Shown: positions 24,211-48,302, numbered from the stretch's first letter. The stretch: DNA of 64,000 nt from Microcaldota archaeon (GCA_016207165.1 JACQQD010000012.1:1-64000); one strand, 5' to 3'. Notes: generated by a model from the sequence alone, not told the origin. Program-made: numbers and translations.

Positions 24211-24253
24211 AATGTAAAGCTTTATTTACATTAAGTATATATGTCTTTACATC
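24211..24253. promoter_or_regulatory. Divergent promoter with glycan-regulon palindrome (site 1)
   Basis: AATGTAAAG-CTTT-ATTTACATT (24211-24232) is an 8-bp inverted repeat. AAGTATATATG (24234-24243) is the shared TATA region. A half-site CTTTACA (24245-24251) follows on the plus side. For the minus gene the palindrome lies between TATA box and start; for the plus gene the half-site does. This matches the sites at 38154, 42173, 42217, 44375 and 48285. Confidence 0.7.
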
Positions 24254-24293
24254 CGTTCAGCGTCTTTTAAGCCTTTGGAGATGAAAGCGTAGC

Positions 24294-25376
24294 ATGAAAA
24301 TCGTCAGCGTGGTGGGGGCGCGGCCCAACTTCATGAAGATGGCGTCGCTGGATGCGGCATTTCGGAAATCCGGGAAGGTCCAGAACGTCCTGGTGCACAC
24401 CGGCCAGCACTACGACGACGCGATGAGCCAAGTGTTCTTTGACGAACTGCAGTTGCCCAAGCCCGACCAGTACCTCGGCGTGGGTTCCGGGTCGCATGCA
24501 CAACAGACGGCGGAAGTCATGAAACGATTCGAGCCGGTCATGGATCTGGAAAAACCGGATGCCGTGCTGGTAGTGGGAGACGTGAATTCGACGCTGGCGT
24601 GCGCGTTGGCGGCAGCAAAAAAACAGGTGCCGGTGGCGCACGTGGAAGCGGGGTTGCGGTCGTTTGACAAAAACATGCCGGAGGAAGTCAACCGCCTGGT
24701 GACGGACCATTTGTCCACGTGGCTGTTCACGTCGGAGCCCTCCGGAGCAAAAAACCTGGAAAAAGAAGGTATCACGGACGACGTTTTTTTTGCTGGAAAC
24801 ACCATGATTGACACCCTCCGGTTTTTCCATAAAAAAGCCAGAGACTTGAACATGAAGGAGAAGCTGGATTTGGAGGGATACGGATTGGTAACGCTTCACC
24901 GGCCCGAGAATGTGGACGATTCAAAGACATTGGCTAAAATCGTGGCGCTTTTGGAAGTGGCGTCCCGGCATGAAGAATTGGTGTGGCCCGTCCACCCCCG
25001 GACGAAAAAACAGTTGGAGCACACGGGCCTCAACCAACGCATCGCCGACAACAAAAAAATTCGGTTGCTGGAACCCCAAGGATACCTTGAATTCTTGAGT
25101 TTGCAAATGGACGCGCGCTTCGTGCTGACGGATTCCGGCGGAATCCAGGAGGAAACCACGTTTTTGGACGTACCCTGCCTGACTCTCCGCGAGAACACGG
25201 AGCGGCCGGTGACGGTGGAACAAGGATCCAACACCCTGGTCGGGTCCGACAAAGGGAAACTCAGGGCTGCCCTGGAGCAAATCGGCCGGGGCACGTACAA
25301 GCACGCCACGGTTCCAGAGAACTGGGATGGCAAAGCCGGGCAACGCATCGCCGAGTATTTGGAGGCCACGGAATGA
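24294..25376 (+). CDS. wecB: UDP-N-acetylglucosamine 2-epimerase
   Basis: 360 aa from ATG 24294. It has the family N-terminus VVGARPNFMKMA, the VEAGLRS motif in the middle, and the catalytic/UDP site TLHRPENVD and DSGGIQEET in the C-domain. It converts UDP-GlcNAc to UDP-ManNAc, the first step towards mannosaminuronic acids. It heads a long plus-strand operon whose next genes overlap as ATGA. Its partner dehydrogenase is two genes downstream. Confidence 0.93.
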   Translation: MKIVSVVGARPNFMKMASLDAAFRKSGKVQNVLVHTGQHYDDAMSQVFFDELQLPKPDQYLGVGSGSHAQQTAEVMKRFEPVMDLEKPDAVLVVGDVNSTLACALAAAKKQVPVAHVEAGLRSFDKNMPEEVNRLVTDHLSTWLFTSEPSGAKNLEKEGITDDVFFAGNTMIDTLRFFHKKARDLNMKEKLDLEGYGLVTLHRPENVDDSKTLAKIVALLEVASRHEELVWPVHPRTKKQLEHTGLNQRIADNKKIRLLEPQGYLEFLSLQMDARFVLTDSGGIQEETTFLDVPCLTLRENTERPVTVEQGSNTLVGSDKGKLRAALEQIGRGTYKHATVPENWDGKAGQRIAEYLEATE

Positions 25377-26299
25377 AACTGGTGACCGGAGGGGCGGGAT
25401 TCATCGGCAGCCACTTGTGCGAGGCTTTGGCAAAAAAAGACGATGTGCGCGTCCTGGACAACTTCAGCGTGGGCACGCAGAACAAGGCGTGGTTGGAAGA
25501 AAAAGGCGTGGACGTGGTGGAAGGCGACATCCGGGACCTGGAAATCGTGAAGGAAGCCATCGCGGACTGCGACGCGGTGTTTCACCTGGCGGCGATGAAC
25601 CGCGCGGCGCGCAGCATCGAAAACCCGTTGGAGGCCAACGCCGTGAACGTGGACGGGACGCTTAACGTATTGGAGGCGTGCCGGAAAGCGGATGTGGAAA
25701 AACTCGTTTTCGCCTCGTCTTCCTCCGTGTACGGCGGCGGAACGGAATTGAACCGCGAGGACCAAGCCTGCCGGCCGCTTCACCCCTACGCCGTTGGAAA
25801 GTTGGCGGGCGAAGAGTACAGCCGCGTGTACTATTCTCTGTACAATCTCAAGACGGTCGTGTTGCGGTACGTCAGCGTGTACGGGCCCCGCCAGCGCGGC
25901 GACATTTCGTATGCCGCCGTGGTCCCGAAATTCATCGAGCAAATCACGGCCGGGAAAAAAGTGACGGTGTACGGCTCGGGAGACCAGACGCGTCAGTTCA
26001 CGTACGTGGCGGACACCGTGGCGTTGACTTTGGCGGCCGCGAAAAGCCCAAAAGCGGTGGGACACGTCTTCAACGTGGCATCGGAACAACCCAGACGCGT
26101 CAACGAAATCGTTTCCTGCCTCGAAAAAATCACGGGAAAAAAAGCGAAGGTCACCCACGAACAAAAAAAGCCGGGTGACCCCGACGCCAACCCCATTGAC
26201 ACGAAAAAAAGCCGGGAGTTCCTCGGCGTTTCCGCGACCACGGCCTTGGAACAGGGTTTAAGCGAAATGGTGGAATGGTACGAGAAAACGAGGGAATGA
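25373..26299 (+). CDS. UDP-sugar 4-epimerase-like SDR protein
   Basis: 308 aa from ATG 25373, overlapping wecB by 4 nt. LVTGGAGFIGSHLCEAL is the NAD site, FASSSSVYGG and YAVGKLAGEEY carry catalytic Ser, Tyr and Lys, and RQFTYVADTVA the substrate region. GalE/WbpP/Gne-like epimerases interconvert C4 of UDP-hexoses or UDP-HexNAc(A). The position between wecB and wecC suggests a uronic or amino sugar substrate. Confidence 0.87.
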   Translation: MKLVTGGAGFIGSHLCEALAKKDDVRVLDNFSVGTQNKAWLEEKGVDVVEGDIRDLEIVKEAIADCDAVFHLAAMNRAARSIENPLEANAVNVDGTLNVLEACRKADVEKLVFASSSSVYGGGTELNREDQACRPLHPYAVGKLAGEEYSRVYYSLYNLKTVVLRYVSVYGPRQRGDISYAAVVPKFIEQITAGKKVTVYGSGDQTRQFTYVADTVALTLAAAKSPKAVGHVFNVASEQPRRVNEIVSCLEKITGKKAKVTHEQKKPGDPDANPIDTKKSREFLGVSATTALEQGLSEMVEWYEKTRE

Positions 26300-27609
26300 C
26301 GATGAATTTGCTTGAAAAAATTGCTTCCAAGAAAGCCACGGTGTGCGTGGTGGGCGCAGGCTACGTGGGGCTTCCCACCGCGCTTCTATTCACCGAAAAA
26401 GGATTCACCGTGATTGCCGCGGACAAAAACCCGCGCGTAGTGGATCTGACCAACCAGGGAAAAAGCCACATCAATGACTCGGAGTTAAACGAACGCGTGC
26501 CGAAGGCGTTTGAAAGTGGAAGGCTTTCGGCCACGGTGGACGTAACGGAAGCCGTTCGAAAAAGCGACGCGGTGCTGGTCTGCGTGCCCACGCCCGCGGA
26601 GAACGGCGAACCGGACCTCCAATTCGTCATGGCCAGCGGAAAAGACATTGGCGCGGGACTCAAAAAGGATTCCTTGGTCGTGTTGGAAAGCACGGTGTAT
26701 CCAGGGGTAACGGAAAACGTGTTGGGACCCATCTTGGAAAAGCAAACCGGAATGAGGAAGGGAAGCGGCTTTTTCCTGGCGCATTGCCCGGAACGGTTGA
26801 ATCCGGGCGACGCCAAACACAAAATCGACAATACGCCGCGCATCGTCGGCGGCGTCAACGCGAAATCCCTTCAAGCGGCCAAGGCGTTGTATGAATCCGT
26901 GGGTTTGAACATGCACGCCGTGCCGGATCTGCACACGGCGGAATTGGTCAAGCTCGTGGAGAACACGCAACGGGACGTGAACATCGCGTTCATCAACGAG
27001 ATGGCGCTTCTGTGCGAAAAAATCGGGGTGGACGCCAAGGCGTTGGTGGAGGCGTGCGGCACCAAGTGGAACTTTTACAAACTCTTGCCGGGCCCGGGAG
27101 TGGGGGGACATTGTTTGCCGAACAACCCGTACTACATCGCTAAAAAAGCAAAAGAAGTGGGTTTTGACCCCAAGTTGATGTTGTTGGCGCGAGAGCGCAA
27201 CAACGAAATGCCGTTGCACGTGGTGGATCTTCTGGAAGAAGGACTGAAAAAAGCCGGGAAAAAAATCCAGGGCACGCGCATTGCCCTGGTTGGAGTGGCG
27301 TACAAAGCCAACGTCGACGACGTCCGGCAAGCCCCATCGCGGACCATTGCGGAGGCACTCCGGGAAAAAGGTGCGGACGTCGTCATCACGGATCCGTACG
27401 TGAACGAAAGCAACATGAAAAAAGTCCACGGGCAAACGGTTTCCCTCAATGAGGCGCTTTGCTCCGAGGCCGTGGTGTTCTTGTGTGCGCACGACGCGTA
27501 CAAGAACGTCAAGCCGGCCGACGTCAAGGCGGACGTCGTCGTGGACGCCGCGTTTCTGTTCAATCCCGGCGAATTCAAGGGCGTATACAAACGGGTGGGC
27601 CTCGGATGA
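26296..27609 (+). CDS. wecC: UDP-N-acetyl-D-mannosaminuronate-type dehydrogenase
   Basis: 437 aa from ATG 26296, which overlaps the previous stop (ATG 26302 is also possible). N-terminal Rossmann VCVVGAGYVGLPTALLF; catalytic Cys in GPGVGGHCLPNNPYYI; C-terminal UDP-binding domain. Four-electron oxidation of a UDP-HexNAc to the uronic acid. Together with WecB it would give UDP-ManNAcA. The next start overlaps its stop as ATGA. Confidence 0.87.
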   Translation: MTMNLLEKIASKKATVCVVGAGYVGLPTALLFTEKGFTVIAADKNPRVVDLTNQGKSHINDSELNERVPKAFESGRLSATVDVTEAVRKSDAVLVCVPTPAENGEPDLQFVMASGKDIGAGLKKDSLVVLESTVYPGVTENVLGPILEKQTGMRKGSGFFLAHCPERLNPGDAKHKIDNTPRIVGGVNAKSLQAAKALYESVGLNMHAVPDLHTAELVKLVENTQRDVNIAFINEMALLCEKIGVDAKALVEACGTKWNFYKLLPGPGVGGHCLPNNPYYIAKKAKEVGFDPKLMLLARERNNEMPLHVVDLLEEGLKKAGKKIQGTRIALVGVAYKANVDDVRQAPSRTIAEALREKGADVVITDPYVNESNMKKVHGQTVSLNEALCSEAVVFLCAHDAYKNVKPADVKADVVVDAAFLFNPGEFKGVYKRVGLG

Positions 27610-28694
27610 GAATCCTCGTCTTGAATGCCGGACGGTTCTCGAGCCTGGACGGGGGAGCCGTCCGGTGCCGGGAACTCGTGGTCAAGGCGGGCCACGACGT
27701 GACGTGGGTGGACCCCGTCACGTCCAAAAACTACTACAAAACGGAGGAGGTCGTGCACGGCGTGCCGAAAAACGTGGAATGGGTTCCCGGACGGTACGTA
27801 AAGGCCAATCCATTGGGCGAATGGTGGGCCCGCGAAAAGCACTTTTTGTCCGCGGCCAAAAAATTTGACGGAGACGTGGCGGTGTTCTACAACGCGTGGG
27901 GCACGTGGCGCGCGCGGAGGCACTTGCAGGAAAAGGGCGTTCCGGTGGTGTTTGACTACATCGACTTGATGCACGCCTTCCGAAGCAACGCGGTGGAGCG
28001 AGCGGTTTCCCGAAAAGCCACCGTGCAAGCACTCCGGCAGAGCGATGCCGTGGTGGCCACGGCCACGGATCTGGTGCGAGACGCGAAGCCATTCAACGAC
28101 TGTGTGGCGTTGGTGCCCAATGGCGTGGACACGGCGTTTTACGCCTCGGCCAAGCCCTTTAAAACCAAAAAGCCGTGCGTGGGATTCGTCGGAGGATTCG
28201 GGCCATGGCTGGATGTGGCGGCCGTAGCGTTGGCCGCCAAGGAGAATCCACAAGTTCAATTCCACGTCATCGGCGACGGGTTGCAGCGAAAGACGTTGGA
28301 ATCCGTGGCCAAAAAGCAGTCCAACGTCACGGTGTCGGACGGCTTTGTTGCACCGGGACGGGCCCGTCGGTGGATGGCGTCGTTTGACGTGGGACTGATT
28401 CCCTTCAAGCAAAATGCGTTGACGGACGCCGTGTGCCCGTTGAAGTTGTTTGAGTACTGGGCCACCCAAACCGCGGTGATTGCCGCGCCCAACAAGGAAG
28501 TCAAGCACGTGGCCGGTGACGCGGCGTATTGGGCCAAAACGCCTGGGGAACTTGCCGACGCGGTGCGTAAAGTCACGCACAACGCGTCCAAGCGCAGGGC
28601 ATTGGTGCAAGCCGGAAGCAAAAAAGTGGCGGCGTACGACTGGAAGACGCTCCGCAAAAAGTTTTTGGCGGTGCTGGAGGACGTGGCGGCATGA
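27606..28694 (+). CDS. GT4-type glycosyltransferase
   Basis: 362 aa from ATG 27606. GT-B fold: N-terminal ILVLNAGRFSSLDGGAVRC, middle VALVPNGVDTAFY hinge, and C-domain VGFVGGFGPWLDVAAV. The donor-site region (CPLKLFEYWATQTAVIAAPN) carries the Glu usual for GT4 retaining enzymes. Adds one sugar of the glycan; donor unknown. Overlaps its neighbours on both sides. Confidence 0.8.
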   Translation: MRILVLNAGRFSSLDGGAVRCRELVVKAGHDVTWVDPVTSKNYYKTEEVVHGVPKNVEWVPGRYVKANPLGEWWAREKHFLSAAKKFDGDVAVFYNAWGTWRARRHLQEKGVPVVFDYIDLMHAFRSNAVERAVSRKATVQALRQSDAVVATATDLVRDAKPFNDCVALVPNGVDTAFYASAKPFKTKKPCVGFVGGFGPWLDVAAVALAAKENPQVQFHVIGDGLQRKTLESVAKKQSNVTVSDGFVAPGRARRWMASFDVGLIPFKQNALTDAVCPLKLFEYWATQTAVIAAPNKEVKHVAGDAAYWAKTPGELADAVRKVTHNASKRRALVQAGSKKVAAYDWKTLRKKFLAVLEDVAA

Positions 28695-29587
28695 AAAAAT
28701 TGTTGCGCCGCGGCGCGGCGTGGGCGGCCCCGCTTTTGTGGAGAAAATTCTTCCACGGCGGGACGAAACCGGTTTGGCCGCATGGTAAAAAAGCGGCGGT
28801 GACCGTGAGCTTCGACCCGGATTACCCCGAAGACGTGCAAAGCATTCCACGGCTTTTGGAAATATTCAACGGCGCGGGTTTCAAGTCATCGTTTGCGTGC
28901 ATTGGCCGGTGGATCGAGAAATACCCCCGCGTCCACCACCAAATCCTCGACGAGGGCCACGAGATCATCAACCACACGTACAGCCACCCCAACAATGAGT
29001 TTCTCAACGCCGAACAATTCTTCAACAAAATGCCGGAAAAAGAGCAGGAGCAGGAAATCGCCGGATTTGAAGCCACGGCCAAAACCGTGTTGGACTACAC
29101 GCCTGTGGGTTTTCGGTCCCCGCATTTTGGGGACTTGCATACGCAGAGCGTGTACAACGTGTTGGAACGGCGGGGGTACGCCTACTCCAGTTCCACGAAC
29201 ATGACGGTGACGGACAGTCACGGATTGCCGTATCGGCCGTCCAAGGGAAACTTCCGGAAAAAAGACGAGAACGGGTACAACGTATTGGAGTTGCCGATGG
29301 TGGCGTGCCCGGAGCACTTTTTCCCGGTGTTTGATACGTGGCACTGCTACCGGACCCAGCCTCCGGCGCACCCGGAAGACGGGGAGTTCTCGCGGTTATT
29401 CAAGAAAGCCATCACGCTTGCGGAACGCCATGGCACGTACGCCAACTTCTATTTCGACCCCCGCGACGTGGCGCACCGAAACGAATTTCAGGAGTGCATG
29501 GATTGGTTGAAGGGGCGTTGCGTCTGGGTGGCGTCCAGCCGCGACGTGGCGCACTATTGGAATAAGACGGTGACGTCAAGGACATGA
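28691..29587 (+). CDS. Polysaccharide deacetylase (NodB domain)
   Basis: 298 aa from ATG 28691. The NodB metal site is visible: Asp in VSFDPDYPED, His-x4-His in NHTYSHPN, and the later RSPHFGDL strand. Such enzymes remove N- or O-acetyl groups from sugar chains or nucleotide/lipid-linked sugars. The basic N-terminus with one weak hydrophobic stretch does not look like a clear export signal, so it may act in the cytoplasm on an intermediate. Located inside the wecB operon with 4-nt overlaps. Confidence 0.82.
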   Translation: MKKLLRRGAAWAAPLLWRKFFHGGTKPVWPHGKKAAVTVSFDPDYPEDVQSIPRLLEIFNGAGFKSSFACIGRWIEKYPRVHHQILDEGHEIINHTYSHPNNEFLNAEQFFNKMPEKEQEQEIAGFEATAKTVLDYTPVGFRSPHFGDLHTQSVYNVLERRGYAYSSSTNMTVTDSHGLPYRPSKGNFRKKDENGYNVLELPMVACPEHFFPVFDTWHCYRTQPPAHPEDGEFSRLFKKAITLAERHGTYANFYFDPRDVAHRNEFQECMDWLKGRCVWVASSRDVAHYWNKTVTSRT

Positions 29588-30903
29588 AGCTTTTCGGTTT
29601 GACTCGCGCGGCCGCACAAAAGGCGTTCACGAAAGGCCAAGTCACCGTCAGCGTGTTTGGGTTGGGTAAAATGGGGTTGCCGTTGTCGGCGGTCATGGCT
29701 GACGTCGGCGCGAAAGTCATCGGCGTGGACGTGGATGCGCAACGCGTGCACCAAGTCAACGATGGAAGAAATCCGTTTCCCGAAGAGCCACAGCTTTCGG
29801 AACTCATCGCCGGAAACGTCAGGCAAAAGCGTTTTTCCGCGACGACGAACGCTTCGCACGCCGTGGAAAAAGCCGACGTGCACGTCATCTTGGTGCCCAC
29901 CACCATGCAACATCAAAACGCCAAGAACTCGCCGGTGTTTGCCGCCGCACGCGTCATTGCCAAAAGCCTGCACCCAGGCGACGTCGTCATCACGGAGTGC
30001 ACCCTTCCGCCGGGCACAACCGACGAATTGGCTGAAGTCCTCGAACAAAGCGGTTTGGTTTGCGGGAGGGACTTCGGGGTGGCGCATTGTCCGGAGCGCA
30101 CCATGTCCGGAACCGCGATTCGGGACATCCGGGGCCAGTACCCCAAAATCGTGGGAGCCAACGACGAAAAAACGCGTCAAGCCGTGGCGGGCATGTACGC
30201 CGCGTTCAACCAGAACCAAGTCGTGGTCCTGGAAAGCGTCAAGGAGGCGGAATGCGTCAAAGTGTTTGAAGGCGTGTACCGGTTCGTCAACATTTCGCTG
30301 GCCAACGAGTTGGCGGACGTGGCCGAGCGGATCGGCGTGGACGCTCGACGCGTGTTTGCCGCGGCCAACACGCAGCCGTTCTCCCACATTCATGCTCCTG
30401 GCGCGGGGGCCGGCGGGCACTGCATTCCGGAGTACCCCAAATTCATCGCGTCCAAGCAAACCCGCGTCATCCATGCGGCGACGCAAGTCAATGACGGCCG
30501 ACCCAGGCACGTGGTGGACTTGCTGGAATCCGGATGGGGTGCGGCTGGACTCAAGGCGAAAAGCGTGGCGGTGTTGGGGTTGACGTTTCGGCCCAACGTC
30601 TTGGCGTTTGAGAACACGCCGGCTGGGCCCATCATAGCGGAACTTAAAAAACGCGGAGCCCACGTCTCGGCATTGGACCCGCTCTGCCGCGATGCGCAAT
30701 ACGAAAAGTTCGGCGTGCCGAAGATGAACCGCCTTGCGGACGTGGATGCCGTGGTGATCGTCAACAAGGATGCGGCGTTCTTGGAATTGGATTGGGCGGC
30801 GTTTTCCGGGAAGGCCATGGTTGACGCCGCCGGATTGCTGGACCGGCAAAAAATGGAGGGGTACGGCATCCGATACAAAGCGGTTGGAGGCGGCGGGCCG
30901 TGA
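29584..30903 (+). CDS. Second nucleotide-sugar dehydrogenase (UDP-Glc/GDP-Man DH family)
   Basis: 439 aa from ATG 29584. About 20 residues precede the Rossmann motif VSVFGLGKMGLPLSAVMADVG. The catalytic Cys lies in GAGAGGHCIPEYPKFI. Paralogous to the 26296 gene but divergent from it, so a different substrate is likely (for example a diaminated or 4-epimeric UDP-sugar). In the same operon as wecB, overlapping neighbours by 4 nt. Confidence 0.85.
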   Translation: MKLFGLTRAAAQKAFTKGQVTVSVFGLGKMGLPLSAVMADVGAKVIGVDVDAQRVHQVNDGRNPFPEEPQLSELIAGNVRQKRFSATTNASHAVEKADVHVILVPTTMQHQNAKNSPVFAAARVIAKSLHPGDVVITECTLPPGTTDELAEVLEQSGLVCGRDFGVAHCPERTMSGTAIRDIRGQYPKIVGANDEKTRQAVAGMYAAFNQNQVVVLESVKEAECVKVFEGVYRFVNISLANELADVAERIGVDARRVFAAANTQPFSHIHAPGAGAGGHCIPEYPKFIASKQTRVIHAATQVNDGRPRHVVDLLESGWGAAGLKAKSVAVLGLTFRPNVLAFENTPAGPIIAELKKRGAHVSALDPLCRDAQYEKFGVPKMNRLADVDAVVIVNKDAAFLELDWAAFSGKAMVDAAGLLDRQKMEGYGIRYKAVGGGGP

Positions 30904-32060
30904 AGTTGGCGGTGGTCGCCGGCCAGCCCATGGAGGCGTTCGTCCGGAAAGGCGAAGTCAAGGCGCGGTACTACAACCCTGGAAACGTTTTTGACGAAGT
31001 GCATTTCCTGACCTTCGCAAAAAGCGACGTGGAACCCAAAAAAATCAAGAAAACGGTGGGAAACGCCAAGGCGTTCATCCACGTCTTGGGTCCGTTGAGT
31101 CTGGGCCAAATGCCTGCCGGGGGACGCCGCGTCAAGGAAGCGCTTTTGGAGATTCGGCCGGATGTGGTGCGCAGTTTTACTCCGGGTCCCAAGGGGAGGT
31201 TGGCGGCGGAGGCGGCCTTGGCGGTGGGCGTGCCGTTCGTCTTGTCGCTTCACTCCAATTTTGACGACTTGCGGGACTTGGCTAAAACGCAGGGGCGGTT
31301 GGGCGAGTACGCGCGGCTGTTGTTTTCCAAGGTGTACGCAGAACGCAAGACGGTTTCCAGTGCGGATGCCGTCATCGCCGTGTACCCCTTCATCGTGCCT
31401 TACGCCGAAAAGTTCGGTGCGAAGCATGTGGACGTCATTTACAACAAGGTGTACCCGGAAGACTTTGAAAACGTCCATCCGGTATTGCCGCGGGATGGAC
31501 GAACGGTCATCGGCGTGGGCCGCTTGATTCCGGAAAAAGACCCGACTCCCATCGTTCAGGCCGCGGCGAAAGTGGGGGCGCGGTTGATTTGGGTGGGCGA
31601 CGGCCCGCTGAAAGACAAAGTCCTGGAATCCGCGGCGGAATGCGGCTGCCATTGGGTGCACCGTGCATCCGTTCCCAACGAAAAGCTTCCGGGATACTAC
31701 GCCAGCGCGGACGTATACGCGCAAAACCTTTCCATTGGCGGCGTGTCCATTCCGACCCTTGAAGCCATGGCCGCGGGGTTGCCGGTCGTCGTGTCTGCGC
31801 CCAAAAAATACCCTCGGCCGGATTTGGTGGCAAAAGCCGGCGTCGTGGTGGAGGGTTCACCAGCCGGGTTTGCGCATGCGTTTTCGGAATTGTTCTCCGA
31901 CGCGGCGCGGCGGAAAAAACGGGGCCGGGCGTCGAGAAAAACGTTGCAGGAAATCAACGGCCACCACATGGAGGCTTGTGAAGCCTCGGTGTACCGGCGC
32001 GTTTTGGCGCAACGGGGGATGGGGGTCCGTAAACCGAGAAGAGGCGGCAAACCATTTTAA
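30900..32060 (+). CDS. GT4-type glycosyltransferase
   Basis: 386 aa from GTG 30900, overlapping the previous stop as GTGA. GT-B signs: RTVIGVGRLIPEKDPTPIVQ, LIWVGDGPLKDKV, and GVSIPTLEAMAAGLPVVVSA with the nucleotide-binding Glu. The first half is rather divergent. The basic C-terminal tail (RKPRRGGKPF) may contact the membrane. Donor and acceptor unknown. Confidence 0.8.
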   Translation: MKLAVVAGQPMEAFVRKGEVKARYYNPGNVFDEVHFLTFAKSDVEPKKIKKTVGNAKAFIHVLGPLSLGQMPAGGRRVKEALLEIRPDVVRSFTPGPKGRLAAEAALAVGVPFVLSLHSNFDDLRDLAKTQGRLGEYARLLFSKVYAERKTVSSADAVIAVYPFIVPYAEKFGAKHVDVIYNKVYPEDFENVHPVLPRDGRTVIGVGRLIPEKDPTPIVQAAAKVGARLIWVGDGPLKDKVLESAAECGCHWVHRASVPNEKLPGYYASADVYAQNLSIGGVSIPTLEAMAAGLPVVVSAPKKYPRPDLVAKAGVVVEGSPAGFAHAFSELFSDAARRKKRGRASRKTLQEINGHHMEACEASVYRRVLAQRGMGVRKPRRGGKPF

Positions 32061-32154
32061 ACACGGAAAGGGCCTATGGTAGACAGCGGCCCGCGTTCAA
32101 CATGCACATGGGCCCATGCGCCGTTCAAACAGGCGGCGGCTTCAAGGTAACGAA

Positions 32155-33900: not shown

Positions 33901-33951
33901 GACGCCGACTCACAGAAGGTGCCGGCATGGCGATGCGGTGACCCAGGGAAC

Positions 33952-35178: not shown

Positions 35179-35213
35179 CGTGGAAAAACCAAGTCCCTTG
35201 CGCCAGCCGCAGG

Positions 35214-35370: not shown

Positions 35371-35422
35371 TAAGCGGTCTTTTCTTTGGATGTAAGAAAA
35401 ACGGAGGAGGCGAGATTTTTTT

Positions 35423-36647: not shown

Positions 36648-36653
36648 GGAAAG

Positions 36654-38087: not shown

Positions 38088-38131
38088 GGACAGTGGATTC
38101 AACCTGGAAAAGACAACACCAACAACAAGAA

Positions 38132-38169
38132 AGTAAAACTTTATATACATTTTGTAAAGTAATCTTTAC
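38132..38169. promoter_or_regulatory. Divergent promoter with glycan-regulon palindromes (site 2)
   Basis: TGTAAAG-TAAT-CTTTACC (38153-38170) lies between the TATA region (TTTATATAC, 38141-38149) and the flippase start at 38214. On the minus side TGTATAT-AAAG-TTTTACT (38132-38149) is a degenerate version that covers the TATA box of the flavoprotein gene. Confidence 0.65.
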
Positions 38170-38213
38170 CTATCGGGCGTAGAGTTTGGAAGGATTTGGG
38201 TTAGTTTCAAGCC

Positions 38214-39632: not shown

Positions 39633-39640
39633 GACCCGTT

Positions 39641-40405
39641 CTATCGTTTTTCGTTCAGCACAACGGAGAGTTCATGGGCGTTGGGAAAATTGATGAGCAC
39701 CGCCCGGTTTCTGCCCATGTATACGGCCATGCTTCCGGCGGCCACCGCCGACGCACCGGCGTCCACGGCTTGCTTGAAATGCATGAGTTCCCAGGCACCG
39801 CCGCAAGCGATGACGGGAATGGAGACGGCGCGGGAAACTTGGCGTATGAGTTCCAAGTCGTAGCCTTGCAGGGTGCCTTCGCGGTCAATGGACGTGAGGA
39901 AAATCTCGCCGGCGCCCCGCTTCTGCACGTTCAACGCATGGGCGGCGGGATCCAGGCCCGTGGGCGTCGTACCGCTGCGAGTAAAGACTTCGTAGCCGGA
40001 ACCGGTTTTTTTGGCGTCGATGGAAACCATTACGGCTTGCGCCCCGAACACCTCGGAGGCCTGCGTGATGAAGGAGGGGTTTTCCACGGCATGGGTGTTG
40101 ACCACGATTTTCTCGACGCCCAAGGCGAAAAGCCGGCGGGCGTCGTCCAAACTCGTTATGCCGCCGCCGTACGTAAGCGGCATGAAGCACTCGTCGGCAA
40201 TCTGCTGGATGGCCTCAAACGCAGGTTTTCGGTTCTCCCGCGTCGCGGAAATGTCTAAAACCACCAACTCGTCCACCTGCTTTTCGTTGTAAATCTTGAT
40301 GGCATTCACCGGGTCGCCGACGTAGTTGGCGTCCTTGAATTGGATGGTCTTGACGAGCCGGTCGTTCTTCAAAAGCAGGCAAGGCATGACGCGGGTTAAC
40401 AACAT
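39641..40405 (-). CDS. HisF-like subunit of a sugar amidotransferase (WbuZ type)
   Basis: 254 aa from ATG 40405. A TIM barrel with HisF motifs (VVLDISATRENRKPAFEAI, LTYGGGI, VSIDAKK, VIACGGAWE). In surface-glycan clusters such proteins work with a HisH-like glutaminase and a WbpG-like protein to convert an N-acetyl group to an acetamidino group. Here it is 4 nt after the HisH-like gene, and the WbpG-like gene is 2.7 kb away. No other histidine genes are present. Confidence 0.85.
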   Translation of the reverse strand: MLLTRVMPCLLLKNDRLVKTIQFKDANYVGDPVNAIKIYNEKQVDELVVLDISATRENRKPAFEAIQQIADECFMPLTYGGGITSLDDARRLFALGVEKIVVNTHAVENPSFITQASEVFGAQAVMVSIDAKKTGSGYEVFTRSGTTPTGLDPAAHALNVQKRGAGEIFLTSIDREGTLQGYDLELIRQVSRAVSIPVIACGGAWELMHFKQAVDAGASAVAAGSMAVYMGRNRAVLINFPNAHELSVVLNEKR

Positions 40406-40409
40406 ACCG

Positions 40410-41036
40410 TCACGCCTTCCTGACGAAGTTTTCCAACAGCTTCATTCCAAACGAGTGGCTTTTTTCGGGGTGGAACTGGACGCCGAAGATGTTGCCTTTG
40501 GCCACCGACGAAGTGAAATCGTAGCCGTAGGGCGTGGTGGCGGCCACGTCCGACGGGTTTTGGCAGACGACGTGGTAGGAGTGCACGAAGTAAAACCGCG
40601 AGTCGTCGGGCATGCCCGAAAACAGGGGGTCTTCTTGCTGGATGGACACGCGGTTCCACCCCATGTGCGGGATTTTCAGTCCCATCTTCGGGTTGAACTT
40701 GAATCGGACGGTCTCTCCTTGAATCCAGCCCAGGCCCGGAAGTTTTCCTTCCTCGCTTTTTTTGCTCAAGAGTTGCATGCCGAGGCAAATGCCCAGCACC
40801 GGGGTCTTGTCTTTGAGGACTTTTTTGTTCAATACCGGGATCAGCCCGCTTTGGTTCAACGCCTGCATGCCGGAGTCAAAAGCGCCCACGCCCGGCAAGA
40901 ATAGTTTTTCCGCGGCCTCGATGACGGCGGGATCCGACGACACGGTGGCCCGGACGCCGATGCGTTTGAGCATGTTCTGAATGGAACCCAAATTGCCGAT
41001 GCCGCAGTCCACGATGACCAGCATGGGCTTACTCAT
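40410..41036 (-). CDS. HisH-like glutamine amidotransferase subunit (WbuY type)
   Basis: 208 aa from ATG 41036. Class I glutaminase triad: Cys in LGICLGMQLL, His-Glu in GVQFHPEKSH. Oxyanion strand VDCGIGNLGS at the N-terminus. It releases ammonia from glutamine and channels it to its HisF-like partner. In the same minus operon as a GT4 gene upstream. Confidence 0.87.
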   Translation of the reverse strand: MSKPMLVIVDCGIGNLGSIQNMLKRIGVRATVSSDPAVIEAAEKLFLPGVGAFDSGMQALNQSGLIPVLNKKVLKDKTPVLGICLGMQLLSKKSEEGKLPGLGWIQGETVRFKFNPKMGLKIPHMGWNRVSIQQEDPLFSGMPDDSRFYFVHSYHVVCQNPSDVAATTPYGYDFTSSVAKGNIFGVQFHPEKSHSFGMKLLENFVRKA

Positions 41037-41089
41037 GGCAAGTACCCCATAAAACCGTCGCCATGGAATCGAAATCCGGTGTCTTCACG

Positions 41090-42136
41090 TCAGGTCAGCC
41101 CCTCATACGCTTGAATGAGTTGGCGGGTAATGGGTTGCCACTGGTGGTGCTTGAGCACGAATTTTCGGGCGCGCTCGCCCATTTTTTCCCGGTAGGCCGG
41201 ATCGGCCAAGGCCAACAGTCCGGCCAGGATTTCCTCCTGCGTGTGGGCGTTGGCAATGGGCGGTTTTTCCCCGTAGAAGCGTTCGCCGAGTTTTTCGTCG
41301 ATGTACCGCAGGACCGGTTTTCCGCAAGACATGGCCTCAAGCGCCACCAACCCAAAGGAGCCGATGTTGAACTCGTCAGCCAAGAAATCGGCTTTTCGGT
41401 ACCACGAAAGCATTTCGGCTTGGCTGAGCCAATTTAGAAACGTGACGTTGCGTCCGATGCCCAATTCGGAAACCAGCGCCTTGCTTCTCTCTTTATGGAT
41501 GTCCCAATCCACGGCAAACAACTGCGCATCGGGATGGGTCTTGAGAAATTCGGCGAAGGCCCTGAAGAACTTGTCGTTGCCTTTCGTCACCCAGGAATGC
41601 CGGGTGGGATAGAAAATGGTCAGCCGCGGGTCGGCTCGCGCGACGGAACGCGGCGAATACGTTTCCGTGTCAATGATTTGGAAGACGAATTCCGCATCCA
41701 GGCCCATCTTTTCGAACAACCCCACCTGATCCGGCTGGGAAAAAAGGAGGTGGTCGCACGACGCATACGCGCGCCGCAACAAGAAACCCAGCAAGGTATT
41801 TTCCTGTGCGAACAACCTCAAATCGCTTCCCACGGGTTGCGCGATGAACGGCTTCCCCAAGAGTTGCGCGTAGACGACGCGGCCCCCATGCGCGTGGATC
41901 ACGTCGTATTTCCGCGTGTTTTTCCAGAGCGTGTACAGCGTCTTTGCCGGGTTCTGGGGCCGCCAGTATTTGACCCAAAAATGCCGCTGGTCTTCCGGTG
42001 GCAGTTCCACATCGCTTGGATCGCTGGAGACCATCAACTCGCAGTCTACGCCAGCCTGCCGCAAGTATTTAGCGTAATTGAACGACAGGTTGCAGACGTT
42101 GCCCAGCTGAAGCACTTTCACGACCCATGCACCCAC
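41090..42136 (-). CDS. GT4-type glycosyltransferase
   Basis: 348 aa from ATG 42136 (an internal GTG start after WV is possible). VIHAHGGRVVYAQLLGKPFI and RLTIFYPTRHSWVTKGND mark the two GT-B halves; the nucleotide-site Glu is in GSFGLVALEAMSCGKPVLRY. First gene of the operon with the HisH-like and HisF-like subunits. It may transfer the acetamidino sugar. Site 3 palindrome lies just upstream. Confidence 0.8.
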   Translation of the reverse strand: MGAWVVKVLQLGNVCNLSFNYAKYLRQAGVDCELMVSSDPSDVELPPEDQRHFWVKYWRPQNPAKTLYTLWKNTRKYDVIHAHGGRVVYAQLLGKPFIAQPVGSDLRLFAQENTLLGFLLRRAYASCDHLLFSQPDQVGLFEKMGLDAEFVFQIIDTETYSPRSVARADPRLTIFYPTRHSWVTKGNDKFFRAFAEFLKTHPDAQLFAVDWDIHKERSKALVSELGIGRNVTFLNWLSQAEMLSWYRKADFLADEFNIGSFGLVALEAMSCGKPVLRYIDEKLGERFYGEKPPIANAHTQEEILAGLLALADPAYREKMGERARKFVLKHHQWQPITRQLIQAYEGLT

Positions 42137-42172
42137 GCCGGCGTCTTGCGGCCGACACCACGCTCAGAGAAA

Positions 42173-42234
42173 TGTAAAGTTTGTTTTACATGCCCCTATT
42201 TAACGGTTTTTAGAGATGTAAAGTTTATTTAACA
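42173..42234. promoter_or_regulatory. Divergent promoter with two glycan-regulon palindromes (sites 3 and 4)
   Basis: TGTAAAG-TTTG-TTTTACA (42173-42190) and TGTAAAG-TTTA-TTTAACA (42217-42234) sit symmetrically around one TATA-like CCTATTTAACG (about 42195-42205). Each lies between that TATA box and the start codon of one divergent gene (42136 minus, 42248 plus), the classic repressor position. Confidence 0.75.
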
Positions 42235-42247
42235 TGGCGTCGCCGGT

Positions 42248-43108
42248 ATGCCCATGGAGAAAGTGCTCATCACCGGCGCCAACGGCTATCTGGGAGCGCG
42301 GCTTGCCGAACAACTGCAATCCGGCTACGACGTCATCGGACTGGTCCGAAGCCAAAAAAAAATGCCGTTTGAAAGCGTCGTTCACGACTTAAGCTCGCCG
42401 GACCAGCTGGAAGTGGACTTTGACGCCGCCATCCACGTGGCCGCCATGGAGCCGGACGCATGCCGAAAAGACCCGGTACAAGCGGAGCGCACCAACGTTT
42501 TCGGAACCATCAAACTCCTGGAAGCCGCCAGGAAAAACAAGGCCGAAAAGTTCATCTACGCATCCACCGGATCCGTATACGGCCCAAACGAAAAGCCCGC
42601 CCGCGAAACCATGGCCGTGAATTGCCAGGACGCGTATTGCAGAACCAAATACGGGGGGGAATTGGCCGCGCGACGCTTCAGCCGGTTCTTCCCGGTTTGC
42701 ACGCTGCGTTACTTTTTTCCCTACGGCCCCGGAACACACCCCAGCCGGCTAGTGCAACGAATGGTCAAACACATCCAAACAGGGCAACCCGTTGAACTAA
42801 ACAACGGGAATCGCCCGCAACTCAATCCCCTGTACATCGATGACGTGGTGGCCGCCACCCGCCTTGCGTTGGAACAGGACACCGGCGCGCATGCCGTTCT
42901 GAACGTGGCCGGCGAGGAAAAAACGGACATCCGGGACTTGGCGGAAAAAATCGGCCGCGCCCTCGGCGGGAAGAAACCGGTTTTCAAAAGAACCGGGAAA
43001 ACGTGCTCCAATTACTTGGCGGACATCACCGAGCTAAAAAAAACAGGCTTCCGGCAACGATACTCGCTGGAAGAAGGAATCCTCAAGACGGTTCAAGCCA
43101 CGGCGTAG
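42248..43108 (+). CDS. NAD-dependent epimerase/dehydratase (SDR)
   Basis: 286 aa from ATG 42248. VLITGANGYLGARLAEQL, YASTGSVYGP and AYCRTKYGGELAARRF give the cofactor loop, catalytic Ser and the Tyr-x3-Lys pair. Shorter than GalE; closer to dTDP-sugar or UDP-sugar reductase/epimerase types. Monocistronic, converging on the WbpG-like gene. Confidence 0.82.
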   Translation: MPMEKVLITGANGYLGARLAEQLQSGYDVIGLVRSQKKMPFESVVHDLSSPDQLEVDFDAAIHVAAMEPDACRKDPVQAERTNVFGTIKLLEAARKNKAEKFIYASTGSVYGPNEKPARETMAVNCQDAYCRTKYGGELAARRFSRFFPVCTLRYFFPYGPGTHPSRLVQRMVKHIQTGQPVELNNGNRPQLNPLYIDDVVAATRLALEQDTGAHAVLNVAGEEKTDIRDLAEKIGRALGGKKPVFKRTGKTCSNYLADITELKKTGFRQRYSLEEGILKTVQATA

Positions 43109-43112
43109 GCCA

Positions 43113-44282
43113 TCACGTGGCCGGCCGCGTGTACTTGATGTAGAAACTCTTGGGAACCAGTTCCGTTTTGTACATGAGCCAGAAAAGCGGCCGCAGCATG
43201 CGGAACGTGGGGTGATACGTCTCAAAGTCCTTGTGCGTCCGATGCGGCGCACGCAGTATCTCTTCAAACTCCTCGTCGCTTAAGTTCAACCGTTTCTTGA
43301 CTTCCTCCGTGACTTCGTCGTCGTAGGGCACCGGAGTCTTGAGTTCTTCCAGGGCCGCCTCGCGGCTTAACTGCCCGGAGCGGACCATGGCGGCCAATTC
43401 CGTGTAACGCAGGTCCCGGCCGAATTTGCCGGCGAGAATCAAGTTATCCCCAAAAATCGTGTAGCGGTTTTCCATGTGGTGGCCGCCGTACCACTGCCAA
43501 CCAAATTCTTTCGACAGAAACGTCTTGGTTTCCTCCTTCTGGTAGTCCACGTAGTACAAAGGCCGGGCCCGCTTGATGCCTTTCAACAGCCACTTCATCC
43601 ACTTGGACAGCCACAAGTTCGGGTAATGCTTGATTTTCATCGTACCGTAGCGTTTGTGCACGCTTTCCACGTACTTGCCGTCAAAATAGAACCACCCCAA
43701 CGGCGCAAAGCCCTCGGTGCGAAACGAGTGCCCGTCCAGAATGTACTTGACGTGGTGCTTGTCCGCCGCCTCGTACAACGTGGTAATCAAGCCGATGTCG
43801 GTGACGCAATCCGCTTCCGGCACCGAAGCCTTGAGAAAGGCCCGAACCAAGTCATTGAATTCGTCGTTGTCCATGACATACGTGTACAAGTCAATGTCCA
43901 GCTTCCGAAGCACGCGGTGGATGTTCTCCACGGCGATGCGCGAATTCCACGTATTGTCAAAATGAACGGCCAAGGGGCGCAGCCCCAACTTGACTTTCGC
44001 CAGGTACAACAAATACGAGGAATCGCACCCTCCGGAAACGCCGATCACGCAATCATACTTGTTGTTCTTGCCGGAAGCCTTGATACGCTCGGCCAACTCC
44101 ACCAACTTTTTCCAGCCAGCCTCGCCCGTGGGGTACTCGCGATCCATTTGGTCGTGCATGGCGCAGTAATTGCACACGCCCCGATCGTCAAACGTGGTGC
44201 GGGGAATGGTCGTGTCATACACGCACCTCACGCAGGTTTGCCGGGGGCCGGAGCCTCGTTTTTCGTCCATCACAAAAGTCAC
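43113..44282 (-). CDS. WbpG/WbuX-type N-acetyl sugar amidotransferase
   Basis: 389 aa from ATG 44282 (ATG 44270 possible). N-terminal zinc-like cysteines (CVRCVYDTTIP, CNYCAMHD). PP-loop ATPase motif CVIGVSGGCDSSYLLYLAK, and the family segment ILDGHSFRTEGFAPLGW. It activates the acetamido oxygen with ATP so that ammonia from the HisH/HisF-like pair can form an acetamidino group. Together these three genes define an acetamidino-sugar pathway. Confidence 0.88.
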   Translation of the reverse strand: MTFVMDEKRGSGPRQTCVRCVYDTTIPRTTFDDRGVCNYCAMHDQMDREYPTGEAGWKKLVELAERIKASGKNNKYDCVIGVSGGCDSSYLLYLAKVKLGLRPLAVHFDNTWNSRIAVENIHRVLRKLDIDLYTYVMDNDEFNDLVRAFLKASVPEADCVTDIGLITTLYEAADKHHVKYILDGHSFRTEGFAPLGWFYFDGKYVESVHKRYGTMKIKHYPNLWLSKWMKWLLKGIKRARPLYYVDYQKEETKTFLSKEFGWQWYGGHHMENRYTIFGDNLILAGKFGRDLRYTELAAMVRSGQLSREAALEELKTPVPYDDEVTEEVKKRLNLSDEEFEEILRAPHRTHKDFETYHPTFRMLRPLFWLMYKTELVPKSFYIKYTRPAT

Positions 44283-44374
44283 ACTATAGGGTCAAGCCAA
44301 TCCAAACCAAGCGGCGGACCATCGAGTCGAAGCCACGATGCCACCCCGCCTTTTGAAGCAAACCTAGGAACGAA

Positions 44375-44392
44375 TGTATATAAAACTTTACA
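44375..44392. promoter_or_regulatory. Glycan-regulon palindrome overlapping TATA (site 5)
   Basis: TGTATAT-AAAA-CTTTACA keeps a perfect right half and a degenerate left half that doubles as a TATA box (TATATAAAA). It lies between the divergent genes starting at 44282 (minus) and 44472 (plus) and resembles the minus-side element at 38132-38149. Confidence 0.6.
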
Positions 44393-44471
44393 TCCTCACG
44401 TACCATGGGAAATCGGAAAAAAAGAAAAGCGATCAAAAAGATTCGAACACGAAAAACCGTGGACAAACGAT

Positions 44472-45446
44472 ATGGCGAAAAACCAGGTGTTGGTAACCGG
44501 CGGCGCCGGATTCATTGGCAGCTTCGTGGTCGAACAACTCGTGCGACGAGGCAAAGACGTCGTGGTATTGGACAATTTCCGCTCCGGAAAACGCGGGAAC
44601 CTCTCGGCGGTGGCCAACCAAGTCAAAATCGTGGAAGGCGACATCCGGAGTCTGGACACCTTGGACCGCGTCATGCGGGGAATTCAAACCGTGTACCACA
44701 TGGCCGTCGAGCCCTTGACCATTGGATTGATTGACCCGTTCCTGATGGATTCCGTCAACAGCACCGGAACGCTCAACGTGTTGTACGCCGCCAAAAAACA
44801 CAAAGTCGTGCGCTTCAACTACGTGTCGTCATCCGAAGTATATGGCACGGCGAAGCATGTGCCCATGGACGAAGGCCACCCCTTGGATCCGTACACCACG
44901 TACGCGGCGTCCAAAGCCGCCGGCGAAGCGTACACGCGGGCCTACCACAACTGCTACGGCATGGACTACACCCTGATTCGGCCGTTCAACGCCTTTGGAC
45001 CCAGGCACCGCATGGACAGCTACAGCGCCGTGATCTTCCGGTTTTTGGAGCGCTTTTTGGCCGACAAACCGCCCATCGTCTACGGAACTGGAGAGCAGAC
45101 GCGGGACTTGAGCTTCGTCAAGGACTCCGCGCGCGGCATCGTGTTGGCGGGAGAATCGCCGGCCACCATCAACGACGCCATCAACATCGGCACCGGAACC
45201 GAGGTCAGCGTCAACGAAATCGCGCGCGTCATGGGGAAAGTGATGGGAAAAGACTTCGCGCCCCGGTACGAAAAAGAGCGGCCAGGCGACGTCATGCGCC
45301 ACTTGGCCGACGTGTCCAAAGCCAAGAAAGTCTTGGGCTTCAAGCCGGAACACACCTTTGAACAGGGCATCCGGGAAACGGTGGCTTGGTACAAAAACGC
45401 CCACGAGAACCACAGGCCGATTTCCGTCGGGGAAAAGAAAACGTGA
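44472..45446 (+). CDS. NAD-dependent epimerase/dehydratase (SDR)
   Basis: 324 aa from ATG 44472. The frame is open far upstream, antisense to the WbpG-like gene, but the conserved N-terminus VLVTGGAGFIGSFVVEQL begins here. NYVSSSEVYGT and TTYAASKAAGEAYTRAY carry the catalytic residues. Likely a UDP-HexNAc(A) epimerase or 4,6-dehydratase of the glycan pathway. Followed after 60 nt by aglB. Confidence 0.85.
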   Translation: MAKNQVLVTGGAGFIGSFVVEQLVRRGKDVVVLDNFRSGKRGNLSAVANQVKIVEGDIRSLDTLDRVMRGIQTVYHMAVEPLTIGLIDPFLMDSVNSTGTLNVLYAAKKHKVVRFNYVSSSEVYGTAKHVPMDEGHPLDPYTTYAASKAAGEAYTRAYHNCYGMDYTLIRPFNAFGPRHRMDSYSAVIFRFLERFLADKPPIVYGTGEQTRDLSFVKDSARGIVLAGESPATINDAINIGTGTEVSVNEIARVMGKVMGKDFAPRYEKERPGDVMRHLADVSKAKKVLGFKPEHTFEQGIRETVAWYKNAHENHRPISVGEKKT

Positions 45447-45506
45447 GCAAACCAAAGGGTTTTAACTCATTGACGGAAACAGTCCCTTTCAGCGTGTGAC
45501 CATCCA

Positions 45507-48254
45507 ATGCCTGTCGAGTTCTTGCCTTTGTTGTTGGCCTTTACCGTCTTGACGGTGCCCGGCATCGCGATGAGCTTCGCGCTCTTGCGAGGCACGTCAC
45601 TGAACCGGGCGGACAAGGCGCTCTTGGGCGCGGTTTTGGGTTTTGTCGCGGTGCCGCTTCTTTCATTCGTTGAATACTTGTTTCTGGGCATCGGCTTTAG
45701 CGCGCAACTGGTTTTGGCCAATTCGCTTTTGGTGTTGTTGGCGTCGCTTTTCGCCATGCACCTGCAGGGCGCGAAAATAAAAAAGCCCTCCCTGGGCGTG
45801 GATCTTTCAGGGGGTGCCCTGGACGTCCTCAAACGACACAAGAAACCCGCCATCTACCTCGCGCTTCTGGCCATCATGGCCCTGACGTTCTACGTGCGTT
45901 TTGCGCCTGCCTTTGACGCCACGTTTTTCGAGTTTGACCCGTATTACTACGAAAAACTCACGGAGCGGCTCGTCACCGCGGGGCACATCGACGCGTTTAG
46001 CGGCGACGCGTACTACCCGGAAAAGGCGTTCCAAGCCTGGCCGCCTTTGACGCAGTACCTCACCGGATCCTGGTACCTCTTGCACCAGTTCTTCGCCGGC
46101 CAATCCTACGACAAGACCACACTGATTTTGGTTTCCCAACTTTATCCCCCGGTGGTGGCCGCGTTCATGGGCTTTGTCGCGTTTTTGCTGGTGCGCACGG
46201 AATACAACGCGTACTACGGCCTAGTTGCCGCCGGCCTCATGGCGTTCACGCCGCAATTGGTCAAAAAATTCGGGGCCGGCGTGGCCGAGACGCAGCCGTG
46301 GGCGCTTTTTGCCGCCGTGCTTTTGTTTGCGCTGGTGCTTTTGATGCTCAAGGAAAAAAGCTACCGACTCGGCGCCCTGGCCGGCATCGCCGCACTTTCC
46401 AACCTGCTGGGCAGCCAGCAATACATTTGGCCCATCATCGTGCTGGGCGTGTTCATCGGCATCCAAGGCGTCCTGTACTTCTTGTCCAACTCGTTTGACG
46501 CCAAAAAATGGCAGCTCTTGGGCCTGGTGACCGCCGGCGTGCTTTTGGGCAACACGATTTTGGCCCTGTATCAAGGCCAGTACATCATCACGTTTACCGA
46601 CCCCATTCCCATGACGCTGTTGGCGGCCTACGTTTTTGGCACCATCCTTTTTGCCGCCGCCAAGTTCCTGCCATTAAAGACCATGACGCACCGCGTCGGA
46701 GCCCTCGGCGCGATTACCGTTCTTGGAATTGTCGCCTCCAGCTTCACGCCGCTTCTGAACATTTTGGCCAACACCGTGTTAAGCCAGTCCCGCGCCGCGT
46801 TTGCGCGAGGCGCGTTGGGTCAAACCATTGCCGAGGAAGGCCGAACCGTGCCCAGCCTCTTTGAGCCCTCGTTTGGCTCATTGAATCCCCCGCTTTTGCT
46901 GGGATTGGCGGCTCTGGTCACCCTGCTGTTGGCCGTCGTGTGGCTGGCCCGCCGCGACCACGTCAAATCCGCCGGAGTCTTGGCGGTTTTCGGCTTTTCC
47001 TTGATTTTCCTCAACCCCGTGGTGGACTCCGGTCTTTCAGCCCTGGAAAAAGCCATCCAGAACCCCGACGTTTCCGGATTGATCAACCTGTTCATCCAGA
47101 ACGACGTCTTCGGATACCTGCTGATCGCCTTGGTTTCCGTGTCCGCCTTGTACCTGACGTTGCCGGAAAACCAGCGAAGCGAAACCACGCTCTTGATGGC
47201 GCTCATCGTTTTTCCCATCGCGTTTGTGGGCCTGAACAAACTCAAGTTCATCGTGCACTTGTCCGTGGGGTTGACCCTCGCTCTGCCGTACGTCTTGGGC
47301 GAAAGCCAGCGGCTCTTGGAAGCCCTCAACGAATGGTTCAAGGTGTTTGCCAATCCGGCATCGTTCCGCATCGGCGTGCTGGCGTTTTTACTAGCCATCG
47401 GAGCCTTCGGCGTCTTCGCGCAAAGCCAAACCGTGGGGCAGAGCATGACGGAATTGCAGTTCACGCGCATCCCATCGGATTGGGTGCAAGCCTACCAATG
47501 GATGAACGCCAACACCCCCGTGGATTCCCGCATCATGTCGTGGTGGGATTACGGGCACTGGACGAACTTTTTTGGCGACCGGGACTCGGTGCTGGCCCCC
47601 ACGAACTTGTACGGCAAATTCAACCACGGAGTGGCGCGGGCGTTCGTCAACGGCGACGTCGACGAGCTTTACGACCGCATGGATTTTCACCAGGCCACGC
47701 ACGTGCTGGTGGACGCCGACTTGGTCGGCAAATGGGGGGCGCTGGTGTACCTCAGCGGCACCTGCCAGCAATCCGACGTGGCCTTCTGCCCTAAAGCTCC
47801 GGACGTGAACCTCTCCAACAGCCCCGGACAAAGCAAGTACGAAACGGAACACTACTTTGAAACCCTCGCCGTGGTGGGCAACTGCCCGGCATCGCTGACC
47901 GGCGTGCCGGTTCCGGCCATGCAAAGCAGCTTCGGCCTGGTGTACTGCGTAACGCAAAACGAGTTGCTGTTGGTGACCAACGACGGCCAACTCTCCGGCA
48001 CGGCCAGGTCCTACAAACTGGTCGGCCGCGACAACATCACCCAACTCTCCGAAAACGAGTCCTACTTGTTTGCCATCGGCGAAAACCAGTTCATCAACGT
48101 CAACCCCGACCTGGAACCCTTCAACATGAAAAGCAACGTCTTTAACGCGGCATTCACGCGCCTGTACTTCTTCGAATCCCTGCCCGGCTTTGAACTGGCG
48201 TACCGGTCCCCCAACAGCCAAGTCAAAATCTTCAAGTACACCGGCCGGCCTTGA
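45507..48254 (+). CDS. aglB: Oligosaccharyltransferase AglB (STT3 family)
   Basis: 915 aa from ATG 45507. The catalytic-loop acid is in FFEFDPYYYEK (about residue 144). About twelve or more hydrophobic helices follow, then the signature WWDYGHW at residues 679-685 and a soluble C-terminal domain with several cysteines. It transfers the lipid-linked glycan to Asn in N-x-S/T sequons outside the cell. The first ~105 residues form three extra hydrophobic segments before the usual STT3 start. A separate TATA-like GGTTTTAACTC lies near 45460; no TGTAAAG palindrome is present. Confidence 0.95.
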   Translation: MPVEFLPLLLAFTVLTVPGIAMSFALLRGTSLNRADKALLGAVLGFVAVPLLSFVEYLFLGIGFSAQLVLANSLLVLLASLFAMHLQGAKIKKPSLGVDLSGGALDVLKRHKKPAIYLALLAIMALTFYVRFAPAFDATFFEFDPYYYEKLTERLVTAGHIDAFSGDAYYPEKAFQAWPPLTQYLTGSWYLLHQFFAGQSYDKTTLILVSQLYPPVVAAFMGFVAFLLVRTEYNAYYGLVAAGLMAFTPQLVKKFGAGVAETQPWALFAAVLLFALVLLMLKEKSYRLGALAGIAALSNLLGSQQYIWPIIVLGVFIGIQGVLYFLSNSFDAKKWQLLGLVTAGVLLGNTILALYQGQYIITFTDPIPMTLLAAYVFGTILFAAAKFLPLKTMTHRVGALGAITVLGIVASSFTPLLNILANTVLSQSRAAFARGALGQTIAEEGRTVPSLFEPSFGSLNPPLLLGLAALVTLLLAVVWLARRDHVKSAGVLAVFGFSLIFLNPVVDSGLSALEKAIQNPDVSGLINLFIQNDVFGYLLIALVSVSALYLTLPENQRSETTLLMALIVFPIAFVGLNKLKFIVHLSVGLTLALPYVLGESQRLLEALNEWFKVFANPASFRIGVLAFLLAIGAFGVFAQSQTVGQSMTELQFTRIPSDWVQAYQWMNANTPVDSRIMSWWDYGHWTNFFGDRDSVLAPTNLYGKFNHGVARAFVNGDVDELYDRMDFHQATHVLVDADLVGKWGALVYLSGTCQQSDVAFCPKAPDVNLSNSPGQSKYETEHYFETLAVVGNCPASLTGVPVPAMQSSFGLVYCVTQNELLLVTNDGQLSGTARSYKLVGRDNITQLSENESYLFAIGENQFINVNPDLEPFNMKSNVFNAAFTRLYFFESLPGFELAYRSPNSQVKIFKYTGRP

Positions 48255-48269
48255 CGGGCGGCAACGGCA

Positions 48270-48302
48270 CCTATAAAAACACAATGTAAAGTATACTTTA
48301 CA
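48270..48302 (+). promoter_or_regulatory. Promoter with perfect glycan-regulon palindrome (site 6)
   Basis: CTATAAAAAC (48270-48279) is the TATA box. TGTAAAG-TATA-CTTTACA (48285-48302) is a perfect palindrome whose last base is the A of the start codon of the next gene. Transcription should begin at or very near the ATG, so a bound protein would cover the start site. Confidence 0.75.

Follow-up and report, generated by a model that had tools for sequence, protein, structure and literature searches.

In the 64,000-nucleotide stretch of a Microcaldota archaeon genome analysed here (GCA_016207165.1, JACQQD010000012.1:1-64000; hereafter the window), promoters of a glycan island share the palindrome ATGTAAAG-N4-CTTTACAT. 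This palindrome is probably the operator of a 62-residue, CylR2-like repressor of the XRE family encoded by xre at C12:84369-84554, which would be the single regulator of a glycan regulon. The original prediction, made from the window alone, had placed the whole island under one repressor and left it unnamed; we infer that this regulator is the XRE protein. The sequence evidence agrees with a single regulator over the whole island, while its being a repressor, which is deduced from the position of the sites, is most likely.

Copies of the operator in the window and the genome

The eight copies of the operator in the window are confined to five promoter regions (Table 1). A pattern scan allowing up to three mismatches returned 7 matches against 1.4 expected, a number reached by none of 100 shuffles. 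When a position matrix was built from operator sites of four related genomes only, with no window sites, exactly the eight sites came out on top with scores of 20.7-35.5, whereas the next non-overlapping window position scored 8.2 and the maximum in 20 random windows was 15.3. With the scan and the matrix, all sites of the original prediction were found in the window, and its five promoter regions, of which four are divergent, its nine transcription units and, at 42.2 kb, its two copies placed symmetrically about a single TATA box were borne out. Sites indeed occur only in these promoter regions, but the earlier list had missed the copy at 24234-24251.

The draft genome amounts to 1.27 Mb in 12 contigs and is 90% complete. 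Across it, 15 matches with up to two mismatches were found against one for a reversed-pattern control, and the 20-bp form of the operator gave 16 matches against 2, so the motif lies well above background frequency. A motif that often overlaps or adjoins the TATA box could be taken for part of the basal promoter or for a dispersed repeat instead of an operator. This is exceedingly unlikely, considering that no more than about 11 promoter regions in the genome carry it, that the flanks differ between its copies, and that related genomes without XRE have glmS and lack the palindrome. Because sites outside the window lie at glmS-HAD-glmU, a distant Gfo/Idh gene, two genes of predicted surface glycoproteins and xre itself, the operator appears to be a regulon switch, and the earlier description of it as dedicated to the glycan island does not hold. 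The best NCBIfam match of the Gfo/Idh gene, UDP-GlcNAc 3-dehydrogenase, was below the cut-off. The predicted regulon that these sites support spans UDP-GlcNAc supply (glmS-HAD-glmU), sugar modification, glycosyltransferases, a flippase, two sequon-rich surface proteins and probably aglB.

A match at C5:6399 was dropped as background with a matrix score of 0.2, and matches in L145, L154, L160 and at L152:10432 were taken as likely background. The L154 match, in the related genome G008 (L154:2648), is a one-mismatch palindrome that precedes a carbamoyl-phosphate synthase-like gene by about 280 bp and possibly arose by chance; the island in the window contains a carbamoyltransferase.

The XRE protein and its homologues

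The xre gene lies 36 kb from the island, outside the window, and encodes MQNHLRELRAREKMTQDDLARKAGVTRQTILAIENGKYNPSLELAFKLSHIFKEPIEKIFEA. The protein matches HTH_3 (PF01381) with 62.5 bits against a curated cut-off of 23, aligns with the CylR2 structure (PDB 1utx; phmmer E 2.4e-12), and is also close in sequence to 9k3w. The AlphaFold monomer model of the orthologue in G001 gave TM-scores of 0.91 to CylR2 1utx and 0.95 to 9k3w. XRE thus has the length of a CylR2-like protein (about 62-66 residues) together with its fold, the latter as judged from the G001 orthologue model. Its nearest named relatives are found in metagenome-assembled genomes of Candidatus Micrarchaeota, and orthologues with 70-90% identity are present in G001, G002, G007 and G008.

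In all five genomes having a close orthologue (the four above and G000, the genome of the window), an operator is placed at xre. It touches the ATG in G000, G001 and G007 and is separated from it by 2 bp in G002; in G008 it lies 20 bp ahead of the ATG, unless translation begins at an in-frame ATG further upstream. A palindromic site at the own gene is the usual form of autoregulation in XRE and HTH_3 repressors, and xre has one in each of the five genomes. The palindrome is also consistent with an XRE dimer bound to an inverted repeat. Directly after xre, all five genomes encode a DUF2178-like membrane protein.

The co-occurrence of operator and regulator was analysed in 40 relatives plus the whole order. 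Only G000, G001, G002 and G008 carry 5-7 sites with at most one mismatch; G007 has one such site plus weaker ones, and genomes without a close xre orthologue have 0-1, similar to controls. Eight genomes without a close orthologue all possess glmS, and the glmS upstream regions show at best 4-7 mismatches to the operator. As for orthologous clusters, upstream of which the original prediction required conservation, the operator is conserved. It heads glmS-HAD-glmU in G000, G001, G002 and G008, is kept at GT4-AsnB in G007 and G008, and stands at the Gfo/Idh gene where this is set apart from the island (G000 and G008); surface-protein genes are also among the orthologous targets that keep it. In G001 and G002, the deacetylase/dehydrogenase region has two sites 44-45 bp apart, as at 42.2 kb in the window (L143, L152), and a further site lies between a divergent epimerase gene and a counterpart of the gene at 51292. 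In G007, xre itself is located inside the glycan island, between wecB and an epimerase gene. The glmS gene of G008 (L156) appears to be split, with residues 1-70 and 65-589 encoded 1.4 kb from each other, through either an insert or an assembly fault.

Among 76 bacterial XRE homologues, for each of which the 200 bp upstream were examined, a perfect palindrome precedes xre in L092 and L136, and one with a single mismatch does so in L141; about zero were expected from shuffles. In L092 and L136 there are two sites spaced by 46 bp, and three sites at 21-bp steps were seen by eye in L141. In all three, a membrane protein with 3-4 predicted transmembrane segments adjoins xre, as in the archaea; unlike the archaeal regulon, only the local sites exceed background, matches in the rest of the three genomes are at background level, and no spread to other promoters was seen. 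Most other homologues among the 76 lack such a site upstream of xre, and therefore the operator specificity is common to only part of the family. Taken together, this suggests that a small autoregulated module of XRE and a membrane protein, local in the examined bacteria, was expanded into a regulon.

The association of operators with targets by itself names no binder, and the genome has 7 HTH_3 matches in all, so that a different DNA-binding protein might own the operator with xre merely as another target. We regard this as very unlikely, since among relatives the palindrome goes together with close xre orthologues, and since in three bacterial homologues it precedes the gene itself and is found almost nowhere else in the respective genomes.

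Promoter geometry and the mode of control

The distance from the start of the TATA box to the start of the operator was 13 bp in 14 cases and 12-15 bp in 20 of 33. Archaeal TATA boxes lie at about -30, and with the 13-bp spacing the operator would therefore span about -17 to +1. A second site at exactly 21 bp was found in 16 of 72 looks (9 at -21 and 7 at +21, of 36 each) against a mean of 0.34 per offset, and this second copy often covers the TATA box. Because most operators begin shortly after the TATA start and are often accompanied by such a second copy, promoter occlusion is the likely mode of repression. One XRE dimer would cover about -17 to +1 and a second dimer, two helical turns away, would cover the TATA box, so that both together would exclude TBP/TFB and polymerase. 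XRE would limit its own synthesis through the operator at xre, and the adjacent membrane protein might relay a surface signal that releases XRE.

The large surface-protein gene departs from this geometry, with tandem sites about 40 bp upstream of the TATA box in G000, G001 and G002. This position is compatible with activation, and it is possible, albeit less probable than not, that XRE is an activator, or an activator at some sites and a repressor at others according to where they lie; most sites, however, either follow the TATA box immediately, covering the initiation region, or overlap the box itself, which is hard to square with activation there. A conserved inverted repeat (TCGTTTG...CGACGA) was also observed between the operators and the TATA box of this gene (L020 about 8048-8075, L146 and L149).

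A distal operator pair upstream of xre shows strong conservation across four genomes and is directed towards a short putative transcript that contains two hairpins. This candidate RNA of about 95 nucleotides comprises a 5' hairpin, a conserved ACCCCUC linker and a terminator-like hairpin with a U run; an Rfam search with it gave no family and one chance-level match. In G000 the linker pairs best with two surface-protein leaders, which 0 and 8 of 153 other gene leaders equal. Since the pairing with surface-protein leaders in the relatives is only in the upper fifth, it was kept only as a lead. It is doubtful that XRE also controls an RNA that pairs with surface-glycoprotein mRNA leaders and balances glycan synthesis and acceptors via a membrane-linked switch. 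The element may instead be a second xre promoter with its leader.

Several points weigh against repression of the regulon by XRE as set out above. Repression is deduced from position, and the sites upstream of the TATA box at the surface gene do not fit it. Site counts are near those of controls for G001 (7 versus 5 with the 20-bp pattern) and G007 (4 versus 4 with the 18-bp pattern), and genomes with XRE homologues of 42-57% identity lack the operator, hence either the specificity has changed or those genes belong to other operons. The DUF2178 match of the membrane protein, at 22.2 bits, is just below the Pfam cut-off of 22.8, and the sole link to aglB is a 60-bp gap. Finally, the genome is a draft, with the completeness and contig number given above, and the related genomes are incomplete.

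The glycan island, its acceptors and known systems

The transcription units of the island are listed in Table 1. With an STT3 domain of 64.2 bits (cut-off 24.5) and the lipid-linked glycan assembly genes of the island, the window holds the genes of a predicted archaeal AglB N-glycosylation pathway. The original prediction had left aglB outside regulation, which is probably wrong: aglB begins 60 bp behind the operator-headed epimerase gene, and is thus probably on the same transcript and under operator control. A TATA-like TTTTAACT is found within the gap. In G007, aglB likewise follows an operator-headed gene run, while no operator was found at aglB in G001 and G002. Two open reading frames near the 44375 operator were rejected, namely 44405-44734 as a gene, the real one being the epimerase gene, and the upstream part of 43476-45446.

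Table 1. Operators, genes and other features in the window and elsewhere in the genome.
Feature	Coordinates	Strand	Remarks
Operator TGTAAAGCTTTATTTACA	24213-24230		1 mismatch; between TATA box and start of minus-strand epimerase operon
Operator AGTATATATGTCTTTACA	24234-24251		3 mismatches; over TATA box, 21 bp from 24213 site
Operator AGTAAAACTTTATATACA	38132-38149		4 mismatches; over TATA box, 21 bp from 38153 site
Operator TGTAAAGTAATCTTTACC	38153-38170		1 mismatch; 13 bp after TATA box start of flippase gene
Operator TGTAAAGTTTGTTTTACA	42173-42190		1 mismatch; one of pair flanking common TATA region
Operator TGTAAAGTTTATTTAACA	42217-42234		2 mismatches; 44 bp from 42173 copy
Operator TGTATATAAAACTTTACA	44375-44392		2 mismatches; over TATA box of epimerase-aglB unit
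Operator TGTAAAGTATACTTTACA	48285-48302		0 mismatches; between TATA box and ATG, last base is A of start codon (48302)
Operator	C1:104969		glmS-HAD-glmU; divergent gene of inositol-monophosphatase family
Operator	C8:163672		Partner 21 bp on; Gfo/Idh gene
Operators	C9:8010/8031		1465-residue surface protein
Operator	C10:766		Surface protein, truncated by contig end
Operators	C12:84554 and 84694/84715		xre
xre	C12:84369-84554 (L019:6870-7055)	-	62 residues
Candidate small RNA or leader	L019:7085-7196 (G000 C12)		Counterparts L147, L150, L064
Operon	21611-24201	-	NAD-epimerase 23290-24201, hexapeptide acyltransferase 22685-23293, DegT aminotransferase 21611-22657
Operon run	24294-35178	+	wecB (24294), epimerase (25373), nucleotide-sugar dehydrogenases (26275, 29584), glycosyltransferases (27459, 30900), deacetylase (28691), carbamoyltransferase (32116), DegT (33919)
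Two-gene unit	36129-38087	-	FAD-dependent amine-oxidase-like 36654-38087, reading frame of no assigned family 36129-36647
Polysaccharide flippase (Wzx-like)	38214-39632	+	
Operon	39641-42136	-	Glycosyltransferase 41090-42136, HisH-like 40410-41036, AglZ/HisF2 acetamidino-modification protein 39641-40405 (above NCBIfam cut-off)
NAD-dependent epimerase	42248-43108	+	
WbuX N-acetyl sugar amidotransferase	43113-44282	-	Above NCBIfam cut-off
NAD-dependent epimerase/dehydratase	44472-45446	+	True gene downstream of 44375 operator
AglB/STT3 oligosaccharyltransferase	45507-48254	+	
Operon	48302-52290	+	GT4 48302-49414, AsnB-like amidotransferase 49399-51225, gene 51292-52290 (product may be GlcNAc-1-P-transferase-like, from reading its sequence)

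The C9 surface protein contains 73 N-X-S/T sequons, compared with a shuffle mean of 23 and none of 500 shuffles as high, and the C10 fragment contains 13 against a shuffle mean of 4.1, while the counts of other tested proteins were near or below their shuffle means. The counterparts in G001 and G002 have 4.4-7.5 sequons per 100 residues. The two surface proteins are therefore predicted to be N-glycosylated, as probable acceptors. Separately, an SMC gene at L020:2862-7991 appears to carry an intein-like insert at its Walker A motif (GPNGSGK, then CVRGDTRVLLSNGRLIPIRELV), and the SMC of G001 and G002 is shorter and lacks this insert.

CylR2 of Enterococcus faecalis represses from a promoter (PMC3709268). 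XRE resembles it as a small XRE protein (62 versus 66 residues) with the CylR2 fold and a small membrane protein encoded alongside, but the described target of CylR2 is the cytolysin operon, whereas the archaeal XRE would act at about 11 promoter regions. In the CylR1/CylR2 pair the adjacent membrane protein is needed for induction; the DUF2178-like neighbour is comparable by position only. In Methanococcus maripaludis, an acetamidino group on the glycan requires the WbpG homologue MMP1081 (PMC2952790), and the AglZ/HisF2 and WbuX families are present here. In the literature searched, neither a regulator of that pathway nor this operator turned up, and there are few descriptions of how archaea control protein glycosylation at the level of transcription, with only one indirect case found. 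In that case, as cited in PMC4245038, a transcription factor of Halobacterium salinarum is associated with glycosylation of the S-layer (Todor et al. 2014). Both cases link an archaeal transcription factor to glycosylation, there via sugar metabolism, in contrast with the operators here at the glycan genes and probable acceptor genes themselves. The H. salinarum factor is reportedly TrmB.

The analysis names one specific protein and one specific DNA site. Through them, the supply of sugar nucleotides, the assembly of the glycan and the surface proteins rich in sequons would be joined under one predicted regulator. The organism is a DPANN archaeon, and its surface probably plays a part in contacts with other cells.
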